Source of the DNA: Paludibacteraceae bacterium
GTDB lineage: Bacteria; Bacteroidota; Bacteroidia; Bacteroidales; Paludibacteraceae
Direction: 5' to 3'
Length of the DNA stretch: 46,811 nt
NCBI GenBank assembly: GCA_017461505.1
Contig: JAFTXV010000009.1
Coordinates: 1-46,811, forward strand
The notes under the pieces are model-generated. The model did not search any database and was not told the DNA's origin. It was given only the letters and a program-made list of their open reading frames with translations. Shown one piece after another: positions 17,304 to 46,811 of this stretch; position 1 is the stretch's first letter; each line of letters begins with the position of its first letter. The translations under genes and the position numbers were made by a program.

Positions 17304-17307
17304 AATT

Positions 17308-17892
17308 TTAGTCCTGATTCTTGGCTCCTTGTTCCTGATTCCACACAAAAGGTGTATCAAACTCCGCTAATTTCGGATGTTTGGTATCTTTCTCGCTCAG
17401 CAACGCCTCCTCCATCTTTAGCCCCCAATCTATACCAAGCGACTCATCCAATATCGAAATCCCACCATCTGCCTCTGGGTGATAGAAATTATCACACTTG
17501 TATTGGAATACGGCACTCTCGCTCAATACTGCAAAGCCATGCGCAAATCCTTGAGGGATAAAGAATTGACGATGATTCTCTTCTGTCAGCAATACCGCTA
17601 CATGTTGTCCGTAGGTCGGACTGCCTTTGCGAATATCAACCGCCACATCTATCACTTCTCCCTTCACGCAACGTACCAATTTACTTTGCGCATAGGGTGG
17701 GCGCTGAAAGTGCAAGCCTCTCATCACACCAAACTTTGACATGCTCTCGTTGTCTTGCACAAAGTGTATATCACCTACCTTCTCCTTGAAATCTCTCTCC
17801 GAAAAACTCTCAAAGAAATAGCCACGAGCATCGCCAAACACCTTTGGCTCAATGATGTACACTCCTTCTATTGCGGTTTTGATAACTTCCAT
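17308..17892 (-). CDS. rfbC: dTDP-4-dehydrorhamnose 3,5-epimerase
   Basis: 194 residues, cupin fold. Conserved RGYFFESFSERDF, FVQDNESMSKFGVMRGLHFQ with the catalytic His, LVRCVKGEVIDVAVD and FIPQGFAHGFAVLSE are all present. Epimerises C3 and C5 of the 4-keto sugar. The core ends near EFDTPFVWN and the last residues (QEQGAKNQD) are encoded by a short repeat also found in the MBOAT gene, so the natural C-terminus seems to have been replaced or extended by it. Confidence 0.95.
   Translation of the reverse strand: MEVIKTAIEGVYIIEPKVFGDARGYFFESFSERDFKEKVGDIHFVQDNESMSKFGVMRGLHFQRPPYAQSKLVRCVKGEVIDVAVDIRKGSPTYGQHVAVLLTEENHRQFFIPQGFAHGFAVLSESAVFQYKCDNFYHPEADGGISILDESLGIDWGLKMEEALLSEKDTKHPKLAEFDTPFVWNQEQGAKNQD
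17311..17341 (-). repeat. short dispersed repeat forming the rfbC C-terminus
   Basis: On the coding strand this carries CAGGAACAAGGAGCCAAG followed by AATCAGGAC, encoding QEQGAKNQD just before the stop. A similar run (GGAACAAGGAGCAAGG, then the same again) is in the MBOAT gene at 31482-31516. Confidence 0.6.
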
Positions 17893-17896
17893 ACAA

Positions 17897-18802
17897 TCAA
17901 TCTAAATTCGAAAATCCATTCTGCTTTACATCCTCAATTACTTTCAGTAAGTACTGTCCATATTGGTTCTTCAACATAGGCTGTGCCAACTCACGCATAC
18001 GCTCTTCTGTAATCCATCCTTGGCGGTAAGCAATTCCCTCCAAACATCCTACTTTCAATCCCTGGCGTTTCTCCAAGACCTCAATATAAGTACTTGCCTC
18101 TGATAGCGAATCATGTGTACCTGTGTCCAACCAAGCAAAACCTCGTCCCAGAGTCTGCACCTTCAATTCGCCATCCTTCAAAAACTCCTGATTCACAGTC
18201 GTAATTTCATACTCTCCGCGAGCAGATGGCTTAATGTTGGCAGCCACATCCACCACTTTGTTAGGGTAGAAATACAATCCCACAACCGCATAATTGCTCT
18301 TTGGATTTTGTGGCTTCTCCTCAATACTCAAGCAGTTACCTTCCTTGTCAAACTCTGCTACGCCATAACGCTCTGGATCGCTCACCCAGTAGCCAAATAC
18401 AGTCGCCTTCTTTTCCTCATCAGCCGTGCGAACTGCATCACGAAGCATTTGTGTGAAGCCCGATCCGTGGAAGATATTATCGCCCAAAACCAAACATGCA
18501 CTATCATCACCAATAAACTCTTTGCCAATAGTGAATGCTTGTGCCAAACCGTCTGGTGATGGTTGTTCGGCATAAGTGAAGTTCACGCCATAATCACTAC
18601 CATCACCCAATAGACGCTTAAATCCGGGCAAATCGTATGGCGTTGAGATAATCAATATATCGCGAATACCTGCCAACATCAGCACGCTGATGGGATAATA
18701 CACCATTGGCTTGTCATAAATCGGCATCAACTGCTTGCTAATGCCTTTGGTGATTGGGTACAAACGTGTTCCCGAACCTCCTGCTAATACAATTCCTTTC
18801 AT
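17897..18802 (-). CDS. rfbA: glucose-1-phosphate thymidylyltransferase
   Basis: 301 residues from [18 protein letters not shown]. An in-frame start at 18856 would add 18 Lys/Asn-rich residues and is unlikely. The nucleotide-binding [29 protein letters not shown] and [19 protein letters not shown] motifs identify RmlA. It makes dTDP-glucose from TTP and glucose-1-phosphate. rfbB (dTDP-glucose 4,6-dehydratase), usually in the same cluster, is not in this window. Confidence 0.96.
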
Positions 18803-18847
18803 ATTGTGATAATTATTTTTGTCTTTGTTGCCTTTTGTTTTCTTCCT

Positions 18848-18973
18848 ACTTGCCACCTACTTGCCACCTACTTCCATCGGAACCTCATCGGAACCTCATT
18901 GGAACCTCATCGGAACCTCATTGGAACCTTACCGATACTTCACCGTAACTTTACCGTCAGTTCATCGAAGCAT
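18848..18973 (-). repeat. eleven or so 11-bp tandem repeats between ugd and rfbA
   Basis: Strict 11-bp phase from 18848: ACTTGCCACCT twice, then a transition unit, then CATCGGAACCT or CATTGGAACCT five times (18875-18929), then decayed units TACCGATACTT, CACCGTAACTT, TACCGTCAGTT and CATCGAAGCAT to 18973. On the coding strand the core reads AGGTTCCGATG. It begins 12 bases after the ugd stop and fills most of the 183-base spacer. Confidence 0.92.
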
Positions 18974-29331: not shown

Positions 29332-29934
29332 TTACATTGCCTTCGCCTCGTGGAGAATCTGCTCACAGAGAGTAGAAATTGGTGTTTGTCCGTCGTTATT
29401 CACTACGATATCCGCCCGTAGCAAATCTTGTTCAGTGCTTTGTGCGCGCATGCGTGCACGTACCTTGTCTATCGTAGAATGATCACGTGCGATGACACGC
29501 TTCAGGCGTATATCCTCAGGGGCTGTCACTGCCACCACCTTGTCACAAAGGCTGTCAAAACCTGCCTGATACAAGATCGCACATTCGACGAAGCATAAGC
29601 CTACCCCCAACCCCTTCCTAAAAGAAGGGGAGTCTTGCATAGTAGCCCACCGCAGAATATCCGCTCTAATTGCTGGATGAACAATGGCGTTGAGTTGGGC
29701 AAGTAATGACTTGTCCGTGAATACGCGTTGTGCTACAAAAGCTGTTTGGTAAATGCCGTCTTTGTACACATCGCTTCCAAAGAGCTGAATCATTTGTTTG
29801 CGTACAGCAGCATCCTCAACAATTAGGCGTTTGGCTTCGCTATCGGTGTCATATACCGCATAACCCATCTCACGCAATTGCTTAGCAATCACGCTCTTGC
29901 CACTGCCTATGCCACCTGTAATGCCTATTATCAT
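29332..29934 (-). CDS. coaE: dephospho-CoA kinase
   Basis: 200 residues. P-loop GITGGIGSGKS (4-14), DTDSEAKRL, and the lid region VIARDHSTIDKVRARMRAQ identify CoaE, which makes CoA from dephospho-CoA and ATP. Residues about 101-113 (DSPSFRKGLGVGL) interrupt the usual link between the helix ILRWA and the strand FVECAILYQAG and are encoded by a palindromic repeat, so the protein is slightly longer than expected there. The gene follows the MBOAT gene by 36 bases and is probably the last gene of the dxs operon. Confidence 0.95.
   Translation of the reverse strand: MIIGITGGIGSGKSVIAKQLREMGYAVYDTDSEAKRLIVEDAAVRKQMIQLFGSDVYKDGIYQTAFVAQRVFTDKSLLAQLNAIVHPAIRADILRWATMQDSPSFRKGLGVGLCFVECAILYQAGFDSLCDKVVAVTAPEDIRLKRVIARDHSTIDKVRARMRAQSTEQDLLRADIVVNNDGQTPISTLCEQILHEAKAM
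29601..29633 (-). repeat. palindromic element inserted in frame in coaE
   Basis: Plus-strand CTACCCCCAACCCCTTC, then CTAAAA, then GAAGGGGAGT. CCCCTTC (29611-29617) pairs perfectly with GAAGGGG (29624-29630). Length is 33 bases, 11 codons, so the frame is kept. Confidence 0.75.
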
Positions 29935-29970: not shown

Positions 29971-31761
29971 TTAAAATTGGAAATAAATAAACGCTTGCAA
30001 ATCTGCTGTAACGAACTGATATACACCGATAACTACTAATACAGTTATCATGATAATTGCCCATATAGGCAATGAACAAAAACGAATTCTATACCAGCGT
30101 TTGAATCGGCTTGGTAGCCAGTGGATGACCATGCCTAACACAAACAGTATCACGACACTACGATACTCCCATAAGAAGTCAGGGATGATACTGCTATTCC
30201 ATGCTCCACCCATCTGGTTGACCATATTCGTAGCCGTCTCCCATGCTTCTTGGTTGGCTGTCTCGGGGTCGAGGTTACTGCCCGAACGGAAGAACAGTCG
30301 GGTGAAGGTGATGAAAACGAAGGTCTGTGCCACTGCCCAAATGGTTGACAGGCTATTGGCTATTGGCGATAGGCGTGATGCGAGCGGTGAGAGTAGGTTG
30401 CCGCGTTTCATCTGTATTCGTTCGTACCACCAATAGGCATAGCGCACCGCACTGCCGCACCACAACACTATACCCCAGACGAAGAACAGATTCCAGATTG
30501 GTGCATGCAGCAAGGCATAGGCAAGCCAAAGACCTGCCATCAGCAAGGTCATAAGTAGCATCTTGAGGTTCCAATTCATCTTCGCCCAAATCTTATAGAC
30601 TATCATTCCCGCCCCATTGAGCGCACCCCAAATGACGAAGTTCCAGCTTGCACCGTGCCACAGACCGCCTAATAGCATGGTGATAAACGAGTTGAAGTTG
30701 CCCGCTGCGGTTTTGTCTTTCACCTCTTTGCCGAGTATCTTGCGATTGCCACCCAGAGGTATATACAGGTAACTCTTCAGCCAACGGCTGAGCGACATAT
30801 GCCAGCGGCGCCAGAACTCTTGCGGATTGCGCGACTTGTAAGGCGAATCGAAGTTCTGCGGCAGATAGAAGCCCAGCAACATGGCAATACCGATGGCAAT
30901 ATCGGTGTAACCAGAGAAGTCGGCATATACTTGCAGCGAGTAGGCAAATAGCGCAAATAAGTTCTCAAACCCGCTGAATAGCAAAGGATTATCGAAAACG
31001 CGGTCGATGAGGTTCACCGCCAGATAATCGCTGAGCACGATCTTCTTGATGAGTCCGTTGAGTATCCAAAACACTGCCAATCCAAACAGTCGTCTGCTCA
31101 GGCGGAAGGGCTTGTATAGCTGCGGAATAAACTCGTTGGCACGCACAATAGGACCTGCCACCAAGCCCGGGAAGAAACTGACGTAAAAGGCAAAGTCGAG
31201 GATATTTTTGACGGGCTTTACCTGCCCGCGATAAACATCGATGGTGTAGGACATCACTTGGAAAAGGTAGAAGGATATTCCCACTGGAAGGATAATCTTG
31301 TCCACCATGAATCGTCCGCTTTCGCTGAATCCGTTGCCGATATAAGCGAAGATATCAAACACTGCAAACTCTGTCCCTAGCAGGTTGTTCACCACATTCG
31401 TGAAGAAGTACGCGTATTTGAAGTAGCATAGCAACCCCAAGTCAATCACCACGCTCAGCGCAAGCCACACTTTGGCTCTATAGTCTTTGCTCCTTGTTCC
31501 TTGCTCCTTGTTCCGATATATCCGCTCCGCTATCAGCCAGTCGCTGAGAGTAACGAACAACAGTATCAGCAGAAACATGCCGCTAGTCTTGTAGTAGAAG
31601 AACCAACTCACCGCCATGAGGAAGATATTGCGGAGGTGTAGGCGATTGGATGTCATCGCAAACACCGCATATACCAACGCGAAAAACGCCCAGAAATAGA
31701 ACTGGGTAAACAGCAATGGGCTATTGCTGTCAAAAGCAAATATGTGGCGTAAGAATTCCAT
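29971..31761 (-). CDS. MBOAT-family O-acyltransferase (AlgI/DltB/PatA-like)
   Basis: 596 residues, about 11-12 transmembrane segments. Family signatures: VGISFYLFQVMSYTIDVYRG, FFPGLVAGPIVRANEFIPQL, DFSGYTDIAIGIAMLLGF, FWRRWHMSLSRWLKSYLYIPLGG, and the catalytic His in GGLWHGASWNFVIWG. It imports acyl groups across the inner membrane for O-acetylation of a polysaccharide or peptidoglycan. The SGNH hydrolase gene upstream would be its periplasmic transferase partner. Two loops hold repeat-derived insertions (NKEQGTRSKDY about 83-92; LSPLASRLSPIANSLS about 455-470). Confidence 0.92.
   Translation of the reverse strand: MEFLRHIFAFDSNSPLLFTQFYFWAFFALVYAVFAMTSNRLHLRNIFLMAVSWFFYYKTSGMFLLILLFVTLSDWLIAERIYRNKEQGTRSKDYRAKVWLALSVVIDLGLLCYFKYAYFFTNVVNNLLGTEFAVFDIFAYIGNGFSESGRFMVDKIILPVGISFYLFQVMSYTIDVYRGQVKPVKNILDFAFYVSFFPGLVAGPIVRANEFIPQLYKPFRLSRRLFGLAVFWILNGLIKKIVLSDYLAVNLIDRVFDNPLLFSGFENLFALFAYSLQVYADFSGYTDIAIGIAMLLGFYLPQNFDSPYKSRNPQEFWRRWHMSLSRWLKSYLYIPLGGNRKILGKEVKDKTAAGNFNSFITMLLGGLWHGASWNFVIWGALNGAGMIVYKIWAKMNWNLKMLLMTLLMAGLWLAYALLHAPIWNLFFVWGIVLWCGSAVRYAYWWYERIQMKRGNLLSPLASRLSPIANSLSTIWAVAQTFVFITFTRLFFRSGSNLDPETANQEAWETATNMVNQMGGAWNSSIIPDFLWEYRSVVILFVLGMVIHWLPSRFKRWYRIRFCSLPIWAIIMITVLVVIGVYQFVTADLQAFIYFQF
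30351..30397 (-). repeat. repeat-derived insertion in the MBOAT gene (SPLASRLSPIANS)
   Basis: Plus strand GGCTATTGGCTATTGGCGAT then AGGCGTGATGCGAGCGGTGA, an imperfect array of GGCTATTGGC/GGCGATAGGC blocks. In frame, between two hydrophobic segments. Confidence 0.5.
31482..31516 (-). repeat. repeat-derived insertion in the MBOAT gene (NKEQGTRSKD)
   Basis: Coding strand GGAACAAGGAGCAAGG followed by AACAAGGAGCAAAGAC: two 14-bp units of GGAACAAGGAGCAA. Matches the repeat at the rfbC end (17311-17341). It lies in a loop after SDWLIAERIY and before the next transmembrane helix. Confidence 0.6.
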
Positions 31762-31765
31762 TCTT

Positions 31766-31818
31766 TTTAGATCGCTTTGCTGTAGATCGCTTCGCTGTAG
31801 ATCGCTTCGCTGTAGATT
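31766..31818 (+). repeat. left block of AGATCG palindromic element flanking the four-helix gene
   Basis: Starts TTTAGATCGC (31766-31775), then three 15-bp units TGTAGATCGCTTCGC (first with TTTGC), and ends CTGTAGATT at 31818. Its outer end is 4 bases from the MBOAT start codon, and its inner end overlaps the stop codon of the four-helix gene by 2 bases. Confidence 0.9.
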
Positions 31819-32206: not shown

Positions 32207-32282
32207 AATCTACAGCCACATTGTGGCGATCTACCATCTACAGGCGCTCCGCGCCGATCTACAGCCCGAAGGGCGATCTAAA
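32207..32282 (-). repeat. right block of AGATCG palindromic element flanking the four-helix gene
   Basis: On the minus strand it reads TTTAGATCGC (32282-32273), then three hairpins: GCCC-TTCG-GGGC; GGCGC-GGA-GCGCC; GCCAC-AAT-GTGGC, joined by TGTAGAT blocks, and ends GCTGTAGATT. The outer 10 bases are identical to the outer 10 of the left block in inverted orientation. Its outer end is 4 bases beyond the SGNH stop codon. Confidence 0.9.
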
Positions 32283-35196: not shown

Positions 35197-36527
35197 TTGA
35201 AGAATTTCTCTAATTGTCTGATTACTTGGCTCTTGCAGAATACCACCACTTGGTCGCCTTGCAATATCTGCGTCTCACCATTCACCAATATGCCCTCACC
35301 TGCACGCACTATCGCACCGATATTTGCATCCTTGGGCAAACGCATATCACGAATCTTGCACTTCGTGATACGACTACCTTCCTCTGCCATAAACTCCACT
35401 ATCTCCGCATCAGCGCTCGTCAAGTTGCGCACATTCAGCACGCTCGCATCCAGCAACATCTGGTAGATATACGACGCGGCTATCGTCTTCTTGTTCAACA
35501 CCGTACCGATATCCAAACCCTCGGCCATTGGGATATAGTCGATATTCTCCACCTCGGCTATCGTCTTCTTTACGCCAAAACGCTTGGCAGCCATACAGGC
35601 AAAGATGTTTGCCTCACTGCTATCCGTCACGGCCACAAACGCATCCGCATCCTCGATGCCTTCATCCTTCAATACCGCCATATCGCTACCGTCTGCGTTG
35701 ATAATCAGAGCGTTGTTGATTTTCTCGCTGAGATGGTAGCAGTGCTCGCGGTCGGCTTCCAATATCTTGATACTCAAGTCGTCCGACAAGTTCTGCACCG
35801 TCTTCTGAGCAATCTTCGAACCGCCAAAGAATACGATATTCCTAATCTCCTGCTTCTGCTTACCCAATTGTTCACGCAGCACTTTCATGTTCTCGCGCGT
35901 ACATACGGCATACACCATATCATCGGCTTGTATTTCATCAGGGCCACTAGGAATGATGGTCTCTTGTCCGCGTTTGATAGCCACTACTCGGTATAATCCG
36001 TGATTGAAGAATCCTGACATAAATTGCTTGCCAATCACTTCCGCTCCTTCGCGTACTTTCACCACGCACAGCTCCAAGGCACCATCGCACAATGTCAGAT
36101 GGTAACGCATCCAGTTCGTCTTCAGCGAAGCGGTAATCTCCTGAGCCGCCAACAATTCGGGGTAAATCAAATGGTTCAATCCCATCTGCTCAAACAGACG
36201 CTTGTTCTCAGGTATCAAGTATTCATAATTGTCAATACGAGCCAACGTCTTCTTCGCACCCAACTGATTCGCCAGCAGACATGCCGTGATATTATCCGAC
36301 TCGGATGGTGTAACTGCGATGAAGAGGTCCACATCCTTCACCCCAATACTTTTCAAGTCGTATATAGATGTAGGGCTACCCACTTTCGTCAGCAGGTCGT
36401 AGTTCGCATCCAGATCGCCCAAACGGTCTTGGCGGTCGTCTATCAAACTTATATCCATATCCTCGCGCGATAGCAGCTTTGCCAAATGGCGACCTACTGC
36501 TCCAGCGCCTGCAATAATGATTCGCAT
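35193..36527 (-). CDS. trkA: TrkA potassium uptake regulatory subunit
   Basis: 444 residues, two tandem RCK units. The first NAD-binding strand is MRIIIAGAGAVGRHLAKLL and the second is NIVFFGGSKIAQKTV (about 232), each followed by a TrkA_C module. It binds NAD(H)/ATP/ADP and gates TrkH. The start lies 34 bases inside the end of dxs. Confidence 0.95.
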   Translation of the reverse strand: MRIIIAGAGAVGRHLAKLLSREDMDISLIDDRQDRLGDLDANYDLLTKVGSPTSIYDLKSIGVKDVDLFIAVTPSESDNITACLLANQLGAKKTLARIDNYEYLIPENKRLFEQMGLNHLIYPELLAAQEITASLKTNWMRYHLTLCDGALELCVVKVREGAEVIGKQFMSGFFNHGLYRVVAIKRGQETIIPSGPDEIQADDMVYAVCTRENMKVLREQLGKQKQEIRNIVFFGGSKIAQKTVQNLSDDLSIKILEADREHCYHLSEKINNALIINADGSDMAVLKDEGIEDADAFVAVTDSSEANIFACMAAKRFGVKKTIAEVENIDYIPMAEGLDIGTVLNKKTIAASYIYQMLLDASVLNVRNLTSADAEIVEFMAEEGSRITKCKIRDMRLPKDANIGAIVRAGEGILVNGETQILQGDQVVVFCKSQVIRQLEKFFK

Positions 36528-38602
36528 ATGCCTTCTTTATCTAGTTTTAACAAATGATACAATTCCTTCGTACTACCATGCTCCACAAACTGGTCATTCA
36601 CACCCAAGCGTATCACACGTGGTGTGTAACCATTATCTGCCATAAACTCAAGCACCGCACTACCTAAGCCACCACTGATTACACCATCCTCCACTGTGAT
36701 GATTGTAGTAAAGCGTTTGCCTATCTCGTGCAGCAAGTGCTCATCCATCGGCTTGAGCCATCGCATATCATAATGCGCCACTTGCCTTCTACCATCTACA
36801 GGCGAAGCCGATCCACCATCTACAGCCGCGTTAGCGGCGATCTTATCCCCTAATAACTCTATCGCCTCACTTACCGTATTTCCTATCGCACCAATACTCA
36901 ACACCGCCACCCGCCTACCATCTACAGGCGAAGCCGATCTACCATCTACAGGCGCAGCCGATCTACCATCTTCCGCCTCTCTCAAGCATACACCTTTGCC
37001 GATAGTCACCTTCGCCTCATCGCCTAATCGCCTCATCGCCTCATCGCCTTCATTCGTTCTGCCACGAGGATATCGAATAGCTATCGGACCATCATAATCC
37101 TTCGCCAGCAACATCATACCCTCCAAATCGTCTTTCGTCATAGGAGCACCTATCACCATGTTAGGAATCGGACGCAAGAAAGCCAAATCCAACAAACCAT
37201 GGTGCGTCGCACCATCATTACCTACGATACCCGCACGGTCTATACAGAACACTACGGGCAACTTAGGAAGAGCCACATCGTGGATGATATTGTCGTATGC
37301 TCGTTGCAAGAAACTCGAATAGATATTACAATATGGCTTCATGCCTGCTTTCGCCATACCTGCGGAGAAGGTCACGGCATGACCCTCTGCTATACCCACA
37401 TCAAACACACGCTCGGGCATCTCACGCTGCAAGATGTTCATGCTACAGCCGCTAGGCATTGCTGGCGTCACGCCAACGATGCGTTCGTCCTCTTTTGCCA
37501 GTTGCAGTAGTTGGTTGCCAAAGACTTCTTGCCATAATGGTTCCTGTGCCTTTGTTCTACCATCTACAGGCGTAGCCGATCTTCCATCTACAGCCGCTTC
37601 TGCGGCGATCTGCAGCGCAGCTGCCCGCCTCTCGCCTGTGGCAACATTAAATTCCCCCGGAGCATGCCAAGTCGTCTGGTCATTCTCTGCCGGCTCATAA
37701 CCCTTACCTTTCTTCGTGATGATATGCAGCACTTTGGGACCCTCGTAATCTTTTATCTCTTGGAAGATACGAATCAAACTCAGCACATCGTGACCATCCG
37801 CTGGGCCGAAATACCGAAGATTCAAGCCTTGGAAAATATTATTTCCTTGCTTCGTCAAAATCGCCTTTAGGTTATTCGTCAAACGCTGCACACGACCCTT
37901 GTTGTCATCCGTGATTAGGCGCAACTTACGCGCTGCACGATATATCCACCAGCGCCAGTTGTTGTAGCGTTTGCTAGTGGTCAAATCCACCAAGTATTGC
38001 GTAAAACCACCTTTGATAGGGTCGATGGCCATATTGTTGTCATTCAGCACAATCAGCAGATTATTCTTGGTCATCGAGGTGTTGTTCAATCCCTCAAAGG
38101 CCAATCCACCCGTCATCGCACCATCACCTATCACCGCCACCACTCGCTTTCTACCATCTCCAGGCGCAGCCGATCTACCATCTCCAGCCGCTTTGGCGGC
38201 GATCTCACTCCCTATCTCTATTCCCAACGCCGCTGAGATACTATTGCTCGCATGACCCGCAACAAATGCATCATACTCACTCTCGGCTGGATTAGTAAAG
38301 GGGGATAAGCCCTTAAACTGACGATTCGTATGAAAACGCTCACGACGACCTGTCAATATCTTATGCGCATATGCTTGATGACCCACATCCCATACCAATT
38401 GGTCATGGGGCGTATCAAACACATAATGCAACGCTACGGTCAACTCCACGGTGCCCAGAGACGAACCTAAGTGACCAGGGTTGTGACTCAACTCTTCTAC
38501 GATAAATGCACGCAATTCTTCGCATACATCAGGCAACACTTGCCTAGGCAAGGCCTTCAGATCGCTAGGATATTGTATGGTATGTAAGTATTTATATTTC
38601 AT
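36494..38602 (-). CDS. dxs: 1-deoxy-D-xylulose-5-phosphate synthase carrying four in-frame repeat insertions
   Basis: 702 residues from MKYKYLHTIQ; an upstream in-frame start at 38746 runs through the promoter and is rejected. DXS makes DXP from pyruvate and glyceraldehyde-3-phosphate for isoprenoids. HNPGHLGSSLG, the ThDP motif GDGAMTGG (159-166), LNDNNMAI, and AEGHAVTFSAGMAKAG are intact, so it should be active. It is about 70-80 residues longer than typical DXS (about 620-635). The excess lies at residues about 134-152, 325-352, 516-563 and 588-606, all containing DGRSA(A/S/T)P(V/G)DGR, each in a position where other DXS proteins have a loop or the interdomain linker. Confidence 0.95.
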   Translation of the reverse strand: MKYKYLHTIQYPSDLKALPRQVLPDVCEELRAFIVEELSHNPGHLGSSLGTVELTVALHYVFDTPHDQLVWDVGHQAYAHKILTGRRERFHTNRQFKGLSPFTNPAESEYDAFVAGHASNSISAALGIEIGSEIAAKAAGDGRSAAPGDGRKRVVAVIGDGAMTGGLAFEGLNNTSMTKNNLLIVLNDNNMAIDPIKGGFTQYLVDLTTSKRYNNWRWWIYRAARKLRLITDDNKGRVQRLTNNLKAILTKQGNNIFQGLNLRYFGPADGHDVLSLIRIFQEIKDYEGPKVLHIITKKGKGYEPAENDQTTWHAPGEFNVATGERRAAALQIAAEAAVDGRSATPVDGRTKAQEPLWQEVFGNQLLQLAKEDERIVGVTPAMPSGCSMNILQREMPERVFDVGIAEGHAVTFSAGMAKAGMKPYCNIYSSFLQRAYDNIIHDVALPKLPVVFCIDRAGIVGNDGATHHGLLDLAFLRPIPNMVIGAPMTKDDLEGMMLLAKDYDGPIAIRYPRGRTNEGDEAMRRLGDEAKVTIGKGVCLREAEDGRSAAPVDGRSASPVDGRRVAVLSIGAIGNTVSEAIELLGDKIAANAAVDGGSASPVDGRRQVAHYDMRWLKPMDEHLLHEIGKRFTTIITVEDGVISGGLGSAVLEFMADNGYTPRVIRLGVNDQFVEHGSTKELYHLLKLDKEGICESLLQALEQ
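36789..36843 (-). repeat. AGATCG palindromic element in dxs, site 4
   Basis: Coding strand: AGATCGCCGC-TAAC-GCGGCTGTAGAT then GGTGGATCGGCTTCGCCTG and TAGATGGTAG. Encodes about IAANAAVDGGSASPVDGRR. Stem GCCGC/GCGGC is perfect. Confidence 0.9.
36915..36972 (-). repeat. AGATCG palindromic element in dxs, site 3
   Basis: Two and a half 24-bp units encoding EDGRSAAPVDGRSASPVDGR. Loops between GGC and GCC are TGC and TTC. It lies just after GKGVCLREA. Confidence 0.9.
37012..37049 (-). repeat. 8-bp tandem repeat in dxs
   Basis: Coding strand GGCGATGA, GGCGATGA, GGCGATTA, GGCGATGA, then a partial copy. It encodes EGDEAMRRLGDEA. Because 8 is not a multiple of 3 the peptide is not periodic, and any change of one unit would shift the frame. 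Confidence 0.8.
37557..37611 (-). repeat. AGATCG palindromic element in dxs, site 2
   Basis: Coding strand AGATCGCCGCAGAAGCGGCTG, then TAGATGGAAGATCGGCTACG and CCTGTAGATGGTAG; encodes AAEAAVDGRSATPVDGR. Directly upstream the run GGCGAGAGGCGGGCAGCTGC (ERRAA) may be a further repeat remnant. It lies in the linker between the ThDP and pyrimidine domains. Confidence 0.9.
38151..38205 (-). repeat. AGATCG palindromic element in dxs, site 1
   Basis: Coding strand AGATCGCCGC-CAAA-GCGGCTGGAGAT, then GGTAGATCGGCTGCGCCTGG and AGATGGTAG; encodes IAAKAAGDGRSAAPGDGR immediately before the strand VVAVIGDG. Both TGTAGAT blocks are changed to TGGAGAT, a change shared by both units of this copy. Confidence 0.9.
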
Positions 38603-46088: not shown

Positions 46089-46811
46089 GCAAACAGGATA
46101 AAAAAGAACTACGGCAACAGATTGCGTGCGAGTGGTTGACGGAAAATTACCTTAATTACGGCTCACTTCGTCACGATATAGTGACGGATAGGTTGCAAAT
46201 CCGTGTTGCGGATTTGGAGAGTTTAAGTGCACCCCATAACGCCACGAGCATTATCGGGGGCCCCGCAGAGGACGCTTCGCTACAGGCGAAAGGCGAGAGG
46301 CAGGAGACATGGCGGAACCTGACGGACAAGGACATCAATACGATGGTGTGTCAGTGTGTGATGGAGAGTGGTGTGAATATCTCGGTGACAGAGATGTGGA
46401 CTGCGCTCAAATCGGATATGGTACCTGCGGTGCACCCGCTAAGAGAATGGCTCGATGGATTACGTCCATGGAACTCTTGTGAGCCCGATTGGATTGACTT
46501 TGTCGCCTCGCAAGTCCATGTGATGGACGCGAGTGCGACAGATCGGTGCGAAGCACCTGTAGATCGCCACTCTGTGGCTGTAGATGGTAGATCGGCTATG
46601 CCTGTAGATGGTAGATCGGCTACGCCTGTAGATGGTAGATCGGCTGTGCCTGTAGATGGTAGATCGGCTATGCCTGTAGATGGTAGATCGGCTATGCCTG
46701 TAGATGGTAGATCGGCTACGCCTGTAGATGGTAGATCGGCTGTGCCTGTAGATGGTAGATCGGCTATGCCTGTAGATGGTAGATCGGCTACGCCTGTAGA
46801 TGGTAGATCGG
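46085..46811 (+). CDS. VapE/VirE-family primase-helicase, N-terminal part (3' end outside window)
   Basis: 242 codons visible and open at the window end. The N-terminal domain (about 1-155) has CEWLTENYLNYGSLRHDIVT with DRLQIR, TWRNLTDKDINTMVCQCVME and VPAVHPLREWLDGLRPWNSC, matching the region before the P-loop in VapE proteins of mobile elements. In relatives the helicase part (FKKWFVAMVAS, Walker A) follows shortly after HPLREWLDGLRPW. Here the 24-bp palindromic array starts at codon 153, in the loop after FVASQVHVMDAS, and runs to the window edge, in frame. Residues about 60-73 (GGPAEDASLQAKGER) may be another repeat insertion. Confidence 0.8.
   Translation, partial: MSKQDKKELRQQIACEWLTENYLNYGSLRHDIVTDRLQIRVADLESLSAPHNATSIIGGPAEDASLQAKGERQETWRNLTDKDINTMVCQCVMESGVNISVTEMWTALKSDMVPAVHPLREWLDGLRPWNSCEPDWIDFVASQVHVMDASATDRCEAPVDRHSVAVDGRSAMPVDGRSATPVDGRSAVPVDGRSAMPVDGRSAMPVDGRSATPVDGRSAVPVDGRSAMPVDGRSATPVDGRS
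46540..46811 (+). repeat. array of AGATCG palindromic units inside the VapE gene
   Basis: After two unique hairpins, GGTGC-GAA-GCACC and GCCAC-TCT-GTGGC, nine complete 24-bp units plus a partial one follow (46580 to the edge), each encoding VDGRSAxP with x = M, T or V (loop TAT, TAC or TGT between GGC and GCC). Loop order TAT, TAC, TGT, TAT is repeated, indicating a 96-bp duplication. No spacers, so it is not CRISPR. Only one forward frame is free of stops. Confidence 0.95.

Follow-up and report, generated by a model that had tools for sequence, protein, structure and literature searches.

How an essential gene can carry several repeated inserts and stay in frame, and what such inserts are, is the question raised by dxs, the gene for 1-deoxy-D-xylulose-5-phosphate synthase (DXS; 702 residues), in a Paludibacteraceae bacterium. 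The gene lies on the minus strand at 36494–38602 of the window, the 46,811 nucleotides of contig JAFTXV010000009.1 (assembly GCA_017461505.1) that were analysed. The inserts probably belong to a lineage-specific, non-autonomous repeat family of arrayed mini-hairpins, each with a GTAG foot and a constant linker, that spreads as single-stranded DNA. The family is dispersed throughout the genome, occupies intergenic and intragenic positions in both orientations and is present or absent at orthologous loops.

Inserts in DXS

Sequence, translation and repeat grouping confirm four sites in dxs at which peptides of VDGR type are encoded in the sense frame, as a first-pass annotation of the window had claimed. 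All four lie on the minus strand, are approximately 56–67 bp long and have boundaries that were placed by eye. Site 1 (38150–38205) contains the hairpins GCCGC-CAAA-GCGGC and GGC-TGC-GCC with linkers, encodes (A)GDGRSAAPGDGR and precedes the VVAVIGDG strand. Site 2 (37556–37622) is in the interdomain linker and comprises GC-TGC-GC, GCCGC-AGAA-GCGGC and GGC-TAC-GCC. The remaining two sites are in the C-terminal domain: site 3 (36914–36975) is formed by GGC-TGC-GCC and GGC-TTC-GCC with TGTAGATGGTAGATC linkers and encodes EDGRSAAPVDGRSASPVDGR, and site 4 (36788–36843) is formed by GCCGC-TAAC-GCGGC and GGC-TTC-GCC and encodes AAVDGGSASPVDGR. A direct-repeat search groups the four sites together (D3/D4), with nine of the ten D4 copies in dxs and one at 32227. 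The earlier inventory was right for these sites and overlooked a fifth in-frame repeat text of GATGAGGCG / GATGAGGCGATGAGGCG type (about 37011–37053, minus strand), which encodes GDEAMRRLGDEA. Its 17-mer has four matches in the present genome and occurs in 13 of the 32 genomes examined, all 13 being inside the dxs clade of 14 species.

Alignment with the Escherichia coli DXS chain 2o1s using phmmer places 13 residues of site 1 opposite gaps, gives 30 residues in the interdomain linker (site 2) versus eight in 2o1s, and gives 65 residues in the C-terminal stretch containing sites 3 and 4 versus 24. The conserved DXS segments are retained, which agrees with the annotated survival of the catalytic motifs. 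That the inserts sit in loops is supported by these gaps against solved chains and, in part, by what we take to be the DXS fold. As the annotation had stated and direct reading of the sequence bears out, the 24-nucleotide unit GTAGATGGTAGATCGGCTNCGCCT has a single open sense frame, that of VDGR, and stops in the other two; the antisense frames are open, except for one frame when the loop base creates a TAG.

A pseudogene with an intact second copy elsewhere, which had been named as an outcome that would overturn the annotation, was not found. The gene matches DXS chains in the PDB with E-values down to 5e-144 and is the sole copy found in the 82% complete assembly, in which the DXS query otherwise matches only small fragments of the repeat. 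Over 614 gap-free codons its dN/dS is 0.04–0.09 to seven of 11 relatives, with dS near saturation; the other four pairs are beyond saturation and yield no value. The gene is under strong purifying selection.

The repeat unit

Each insert had been described as one palindrome. It is instead an array of separate, tiny hairpins whose stems vary and are 2–6 bp long; TGTAG and a short linker come after each hairpin. The linkers are constant (TGTAGATC or TGTAGATGGTAGATC), and the small segments between them are mostly hairpins with many different stems (GC/GC, GT/AC, AC/GT, GGC/GCC, GGGC/GCCC, GCCC/GGGC, GTCC/GGAC, GGCGC/GCGCC, GGCAC/GTGCC, GCCAC/GTGGC and GCCGC/GCGGC), and one hairpin type, GC-TC-GC...GC-TC-GC, keeps a conserved TC/TC mismatch. 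The tandem periods are 15 and 24 nucleotides. As the segments between linkers are mostly recurring small hairpins and not unique spacers, the arrays do not resemble clustered regularly interspaced short palindromic repeats (CRISPR). A GTAG comes one T beyond the stem in 183 of 247 modules of the present genome and 148 of 204 in relatives, in a search that itself demanded TGTAG, TGGAG, TGAAG or TTGTAG at that position.

The stem sequences vary yet stay complementary. Among 435 module places in the present genome and five relatives, the fully paired distinct modules number 15 of 22 11-mers, 15 of 25 12-mers, 17 of 29 13-mers, 10 of 15 14-mers and 28 of 42 15-mers. When the 3′ arms were re-dealt within each length class, with non-pairing modules kept, the observed pairing was reached by none of 2000 re-dealings in each of these five classes, a control that ignores the relatedness of copies. 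GT wobble pairs are absent from the 9-mer class and number at most three at any pair position elsewhere.

The loop rule tightens as the stems shorten. Among fully paired modules, TNY loops are found on 104 of 104 2-bp stems, 46 of 46 3-bp stems, 29 of 42 4-bp stems (11-mers) and eight of 24 5-bp stems (13-mers), the TNC form accounting for 85, 37, 25 and three of these, respectively; T, G and A are the middle bases seen on 2- and 3-bp stems. Read on the complementary strand, TNC is GNA. RNA is not known to share the stability that GNA-loop mini-hairpins have as DNA. DNA mini-hairpins with a GNA or GNNA loop and at least two G-C pairs are exceptionally stable; that of GCGAAGC melts at 78 °C (PMC4686876, which, like the other papers cited here, is represented by excerpts). 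The stricter loop on the shorter stem fits selection on the stability of the DNA hairpin. The complement of the commonest short modules is GCGAAGC, GCGCAGC or GCGTAGC, as in the d(GCGNAGC) mini-hairpins of the same paper; the excerpts present those from oligonucleotide chemistry and aptamers, whereas here the motif is a genomic repeat. No earlier example of a GNA-loop mini-hairpin as a genomic repeat unit was found in the open-access literature searched.

Copies outside dxs

Exact-pattern searches of the 1.74 Mb assembly returned 40 matches of the linker TAGATGGTAGATC and 58 of CTGTAGATCG, with none for the reversed-pattern controls; such searches miss degenerate copies, so that these numbers are minima. 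Elsewhere in the window, an intergenic copy at 31765–31813 (plus strand) consists of 15-nucleotide units GATCGCTTCGCTGTA, and the repeat search found another at 32209–32280 (minus strand) with three different stems (GCCC/GGGC, GGCGC/GCGCC and GCCAC/GTGGC). At the contig end the repeat and linker searches identified an array of mostly 24-nucleotide units, in frame within an open frame (46540–46811, plus strand). Contig C9 begins with the same array inside the frame of a VapE-domain protein, and the two frames may be parts of one gene. In the VapE-domain proteins of this genome (46540–46811, L019 and L023), VDGR arrays precede the VapE domain. Contigs C7 and C9 end or begin inside a VDGR array, which may have broken the assembly.

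A gene survey of 26 stretches and eight loci from the linker search gave 21 candidate open reading frames (ORFs) including dxs. Three of them were excluded from the intragenic count: in L007 and L013 the repeat precedes the probable start, and L018 has no Pfam domain. In the other 18 the repeat lies inside the frame of a Pfam-domain protein. The uniform orientation and frame reported for dxs hold within that gene and not genome-wide, where antisense copies are commoner (12 of 18 genes). Sense copies are found in five genes (dxs, aroQ and those for a UbiA protein, a VapE protein and a golvesin-domain protein), and a second VapE protein (L023) has both orientations. The antisense group consists of lpxB, aroA, pdxA and the genes for a GATase_5 (purL-type) protein, glycogen synthase, ribonuclease H, a radical-SAM protein, a U32 peptidase, an NlpC/P60 protein, an ABC ATPase, a PKD protein and a GH2 enzyme. 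In L024, a member of this group, a single linker match is found on the opposite strand as well. Of 42 multi-unit clusters in the loci of this genome, 27 have one orientation and 15 have both.

In PdxA and AroQ the insert segment is extra relative to PDB homologues; the insert region of AroA aligns poorly to its PDB homologue and is less clear. The aroQ loop contains VDGR text in one of 20 genomes, the present one, and other repeat texts in G074, G140 and G132; in G160 it contains a hairpin, GCTCGCGATACGAGC, followed by TACAG, which may be an antisense relative of the VDGR family. Non-palindromic texts (GATGAGGCG and GGTTAAAGG) fill the same loops in relatives. Matches of at least 250 bp by blastn join clusters of the present genome to those fetched from G074, G099 and G113, including aroA, glycogen synthase and the GH2 enzyme; several insertions are older and common to relatives.

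Double-sided hairpin arrays lie between genes for gyrB, an Na/Ca exchanger, YchF and iPGM (G000 C4:538300–545300, L015), with matching positions in G113 (L115) and G074 (L135). A transposon-like gene flanked by double-sided arrays was sought there (C4:538–545 kb); the genes present are housekeeping genes.

Distribution and turnover among relatives

A 10-nucleotide core of the repeat has 58, 25, 20, 13, six and six matches in six of 61 genus genomes; it has one to three matches in 19, where single matches may be due to chance, and none in 36. Six more species (G160, G154, G166, G167, G138 and G164) show VDGR text in dxs. Among 393 genomes of the order, a sample that includes three genus members, the 17-nucleotide linker occurs only in the present genome, with 32 matches. 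The nearest titled DXS record is a Paludibacteraceae metagenome-assembled genome (MAG) of water-buffalo colon, and Bacteroidales MAGs of animal-gut origin make up most of the rest; the host bacterium is probably also from an animal gut. Carriage by viruses is not supported: one scan of viral contigs, a set that excluded plasmid and phage records, gave two single matches outside any hairpin context, judged to be chance.

The DXS alignment covered 27 of the 165 genus genomes with a DXS match, and the DNA of six loop regions was read in 14 close species; the wider alignment shows seven of 30 family loci, its filter having dropped 23. The comparison with close relatives that the first-pass annotation had proposed shows that the inserts vary between them and are absent from the solved chains. 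VDGR-type text is present at site 1, with one to three hairpins, in seven of the 14 close species, at sites 2 and 3 in the present genome only, and at site 4 in three (the present genome, with related text in G113 and G167). An additional dxs loop that is empty in the present genome contains such text in two of the 14 (G113 and G164). Array composition differs between species at the same site. Beyond what the annotation described, the dxs loops hold other repeat texts in other species, the same loops being filled by GATGAGGCGATGAGGCG, GAGAGGTTAAAGGTGAAAGG or the palindrome CACCCC-stem-CGGGGACCCCG.

The last of these represents a further family of modular palindromes, CACCCC-[variable stem]-CGGGGACCCCG, with 4–22 matches in each of the 14 species of the dxs clade and matches in one of 18 other genomes examined. 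It is found in dxs of G113 (e.g. G113:C79:43049–43084) and G219 (L068), and a copy in G074 (L130) apparently lies within a hairpin loop of the VDGR family.

In the dxs tree the present genome is sister to G074 with a support of 1.00. The dxs gene of G074 has no VDGR-type text at sites 1–4, although GGCTGCGCCTGTGGTAG in its region 2b resembles a family remnant. Because this sister lacks the text, sites 2 and 3 are most simply read as gains on the branch of the present genome, with allele exchange as a possible alternative. When site 4 is compared with G160, a 3 bp repeat (AAG) is possible by eye; no terminal inverted repeat of the whole element, as expected of a miniature inverted-repeat transposable element, was seen.

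Origin and spread of the inserts

The proposal that these observations suggest is that the hairpins act as DNA, and not as RNA or protein. They would form while the DNA is single-stranded, and short arrays would be copied to other places by a process acting on single-stranded DNA; candidates are a Y1/HUH enzyme whose gene lies elsewhere and template switching as the DNA replicates. Arrays would then grow and shrink through slippage and recombination at identical linkers; copies that keep the frame in tolerant loops would survive selection and the others would be lost.

Several results weigh against this proposal. Covariation is weaker in the shortest classes, the observed values being reached by 15 and 16 of 2000 re-dealings for 7-mers and by one and 35 for 9-mers. 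Half of the loops on 5-bp stems (12 of 24) are purine-N-A on the GTAG strand itself, TNC is found in only seven of 44 15-mers, so that longer hairpins break the loop rule, and the rule may in part reflect descent from a few founders. Whole elements fold no better as DNA than shuffled sequences (five tests, z −1.20 to +0.07), and ViennaRNA assigns the smallest hairpins almost no stability, its parameters presumably lacking a GNA bonus. A clean target-site duplication was not established, and the family is linked to no mobilizing enzyme, the candidate transposase genes described below having no linker nearby.

These candidates resemble RAYT (REP-associated tyrosine transposase, TnpA_REP) genes, which mobilize repetitive extragenic palindromic (REP) elements. 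The Pfam model Y1_Tnp matches in six of 32 genomes, five over the cut-off, and not in the present one; since a protein query nevertheless found a divergent RAYT-like ORF there, the Pfam miss does not indicate absence. The divergent family, retrieved with one Y1_Tnp-matching protein as the query, is about 330–480 residues long and has PDHxH and NPxR motifs; all four proteins tested give sub-cutoff matches to NCBIfam REP_Tyr_transpos. With the ORF of the present genome (C9:262249–263439) as the query, matches are found in 136 of 178 genus genomes, including four in the present genome, the best of which was examined. Many RAYT-like genes adjoin or contain recurrent palindromes (for example, in G117, TTTGTCCATTA-CCCGAATnnnATTCGGG repeated about every 41 bp and, in G196, TTGCGCATCnATGCGCAA), and an in-frame hairpin of at least 7 bp lies inside 28 of the 30 RAYT-like ORFs listed. 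Some RAYT-like loci (L168, L176, L161, L177 and L183–L211) have flanking palindrome arrays and up to four hairpins of at least 7 bp within the ORF, and some of the within-ORF hairpins recur between the HUH and tyrosine motifs.

A true REP family, with GTAG-footed hairpins recognized and copied by the RAYT-like proteins of the genus, is favoured by the unpaired GTAG at the hairpin foot, by the wide occurrence of these proteins and by the palindromes beside and within many of their genes, as in the excerpts of Quentin 2018 (PMC6006769). Yet none of 51 distinct RAYT-like ORFs (54 loci, covering part of the RAYT genes of the genus; 47 ORFs with both 500 bp flanks complete) has even one linker of the GTAG family within 500 bp, and the copy-rich genomes G113 and G099 have only marginal RAYT-like matches (best 1.9e-5 and 8e-5). 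For these two reasons the data do not establish that the VDGR family is part of a REPtron, and mobilization by RAYT seems rather unlikely. A similarly doubtful account dispenses with dedicated mobility: replication slippage, template switching and ectopic gene conversion would spread short repeats, and loops would merely tolerate the text. The tandem arrays with 15- and 24-nucleotide periods, the non-palindromic texts in the same loops of relatives and the differing array compositions at one dxs site agree with it, but slippage alone neither reaches dozens of unlinked loci in both orientations nor keeps differing stems complementary.

A structured RNA element, such as a terminator, mRNA stabilizer or riboregulator, could explain the double-sided arrays of certain intergenic regions (near YchF, gyrB and the Na/Ca exchanger) and the 15 clusters of both orientations. 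An mRNA role is disfavoured because intragenic copies occur in both orientations; GT wobble pairs are few and the window has no Rfam match at gathering scores, which leaves this explanation improbable. Least probable is that DXS possesses these peptides as an ancestral or selected feature of the protein, despite their in-frame position in a conserved gene. The annotation had allowed for residues ancestral to DXS in all related Bacteroidales; these were not seen, since relatives and PDB chains without inserts exist, and an ancestral peptide is rejected given also that unrelated texts replace the peptides in relatives. The same DNA is moreover antisense, and encodes other peptides, in 12 other genes.

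The preferred reading, spread of arrayed hairpins as single-stranded DNA, has a bolder form that is at present tentative: the mini-hairpin itself would be the replication unit, any short G-C stem with a GNA-type loop and a GTAG foot being copied without a linked transposase and irrespective of stem sequence, and decorating many essential enzymes within a single bacterial lineage. If true, the physics of GNA-loop DNA mini-hairpins would have shaped a genomic repeat family. That loops become stricter as stems shorten hints, in a testable way, that selection acts on the stability of the DNA hairpin rather than on sequence, RNA or peptide. Essential enzymes of Bacteroidales are seen here to carry in-frame inserts resembling REP elements or Rickettsia palindromic elements (RPEs); across many species the same loop is empty, filled or filled by a different repeat, which provides a natural experiment on the insertion tolerance of essential enzymes and on what the element needs for its spread.

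Other repeats in the window

The coaE gene for dephospho-CoA kinase (29335–29934, minus strand) has an in-frame palindrome, CCCCTTC-TTTTAG-GAAGGGG, followed by TTGGGGGTAGG near 29600–29632, an insert of approximately nine residues relative to PDB chain 1jjv. A non-palindromic text of GGAACAAGGAGC type, encoding peptides such as KEQGAKNKDQ, is in frame at 17307–17335 and 31472–31514 and in L027; its hosts are the end of an ORF that is presumably rfbC-like, an ORF that we take to be acyltransferase-like, and an ABC ATPase. The window has seven loose matches to this text versus 2.03 expected, and none of 100 shuffles reaches seven. A tandem array of the 11-nucleotide unit CATCGGAACCT at 18864–18951 lies just upstream of the ORF at 17897–18856 (minus strand), presumably a nucleotidyltransferase gene.

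Comparison with known elements

The open-access literature searched for the same phenomenon in Bacteroidales shows only the REP and RAYT papers cited here. In the excerpts of Di Nocera 2013 (PMC3733652), GTAG repeats are assigned to Proteobacteria, Cyanobacteria, Chloroflexi and the PVC group, and the groups with CGTC repeats include Bacteroidetes. Like the GTAG-REPs described there, for example in Opitutus terrae, the present elements are small hairpins with an unpaired GTAG at one end and include subfamilies with complementary stem changes; those repeats are mostly intergenic and also occur inside known genes, sometimes twice per ORF, as the present family does in at least 18 genes. The differences are that the known stems are 5–13 bp long, whereas most of those here are 2–4 bp and some 5–6 bp; that head-to-head or tail-to-tail dimers are usual and head-to-tail dimers rare, whereas same-orientation arrays predominate here (27 of 42 clusters); and that a 3-nucleotide spacer between GTAG and the next stem and TNY loops on short stems are found here. 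The RAYT gene is flanked there by the same repeat, which is the case for none of the 51 RAYT-like ORFs here, although the same excerpts mention some RAYT genes without flanking REPs.

According to the excerpts of Quentin 2018, atypical hairpins lie beside Bacteroidetes tnpA_REP genes of subclass 2.6 and REPs lie inside those of subclass 2.4 (PMC6006769). The RAYT-like genes of the genus resemble both in having recurrent palindromes beside and inside them, but these belong to other families (e.g. CCCGAATnnnATTCGGG) and are not VDGR/GTAG arrays.

The parallel with RPEs drawn in the first-pass annotation holds for in-frame entry into genes and fails for anatomy, which is nearer to REP elements than to RPE-1. 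RPEs are found in frame in conserved housekeeping genes, as the present inserts are, and one tested product, Gmk, is still active, according to the part of PMC2229807 cited; they differ in being long stem-loops of 105–146 bp with terminal inverted repeats, in contrast to the short modular arrays here. The intragenic RPE-4 and RPE-6 of R. conorii are classed as CGTC REPs in the excerpts of PMC3733652. By analogy, the VDGR family can be said to behave like the intragenic REP and RPE palindromes. Because stem length, array orientation and RAYT adjacency depart from those of GTAG-REPs despite the GTAG foot, it is not filed among them and is best called arrays of GTAG-footed mini-hairpins.

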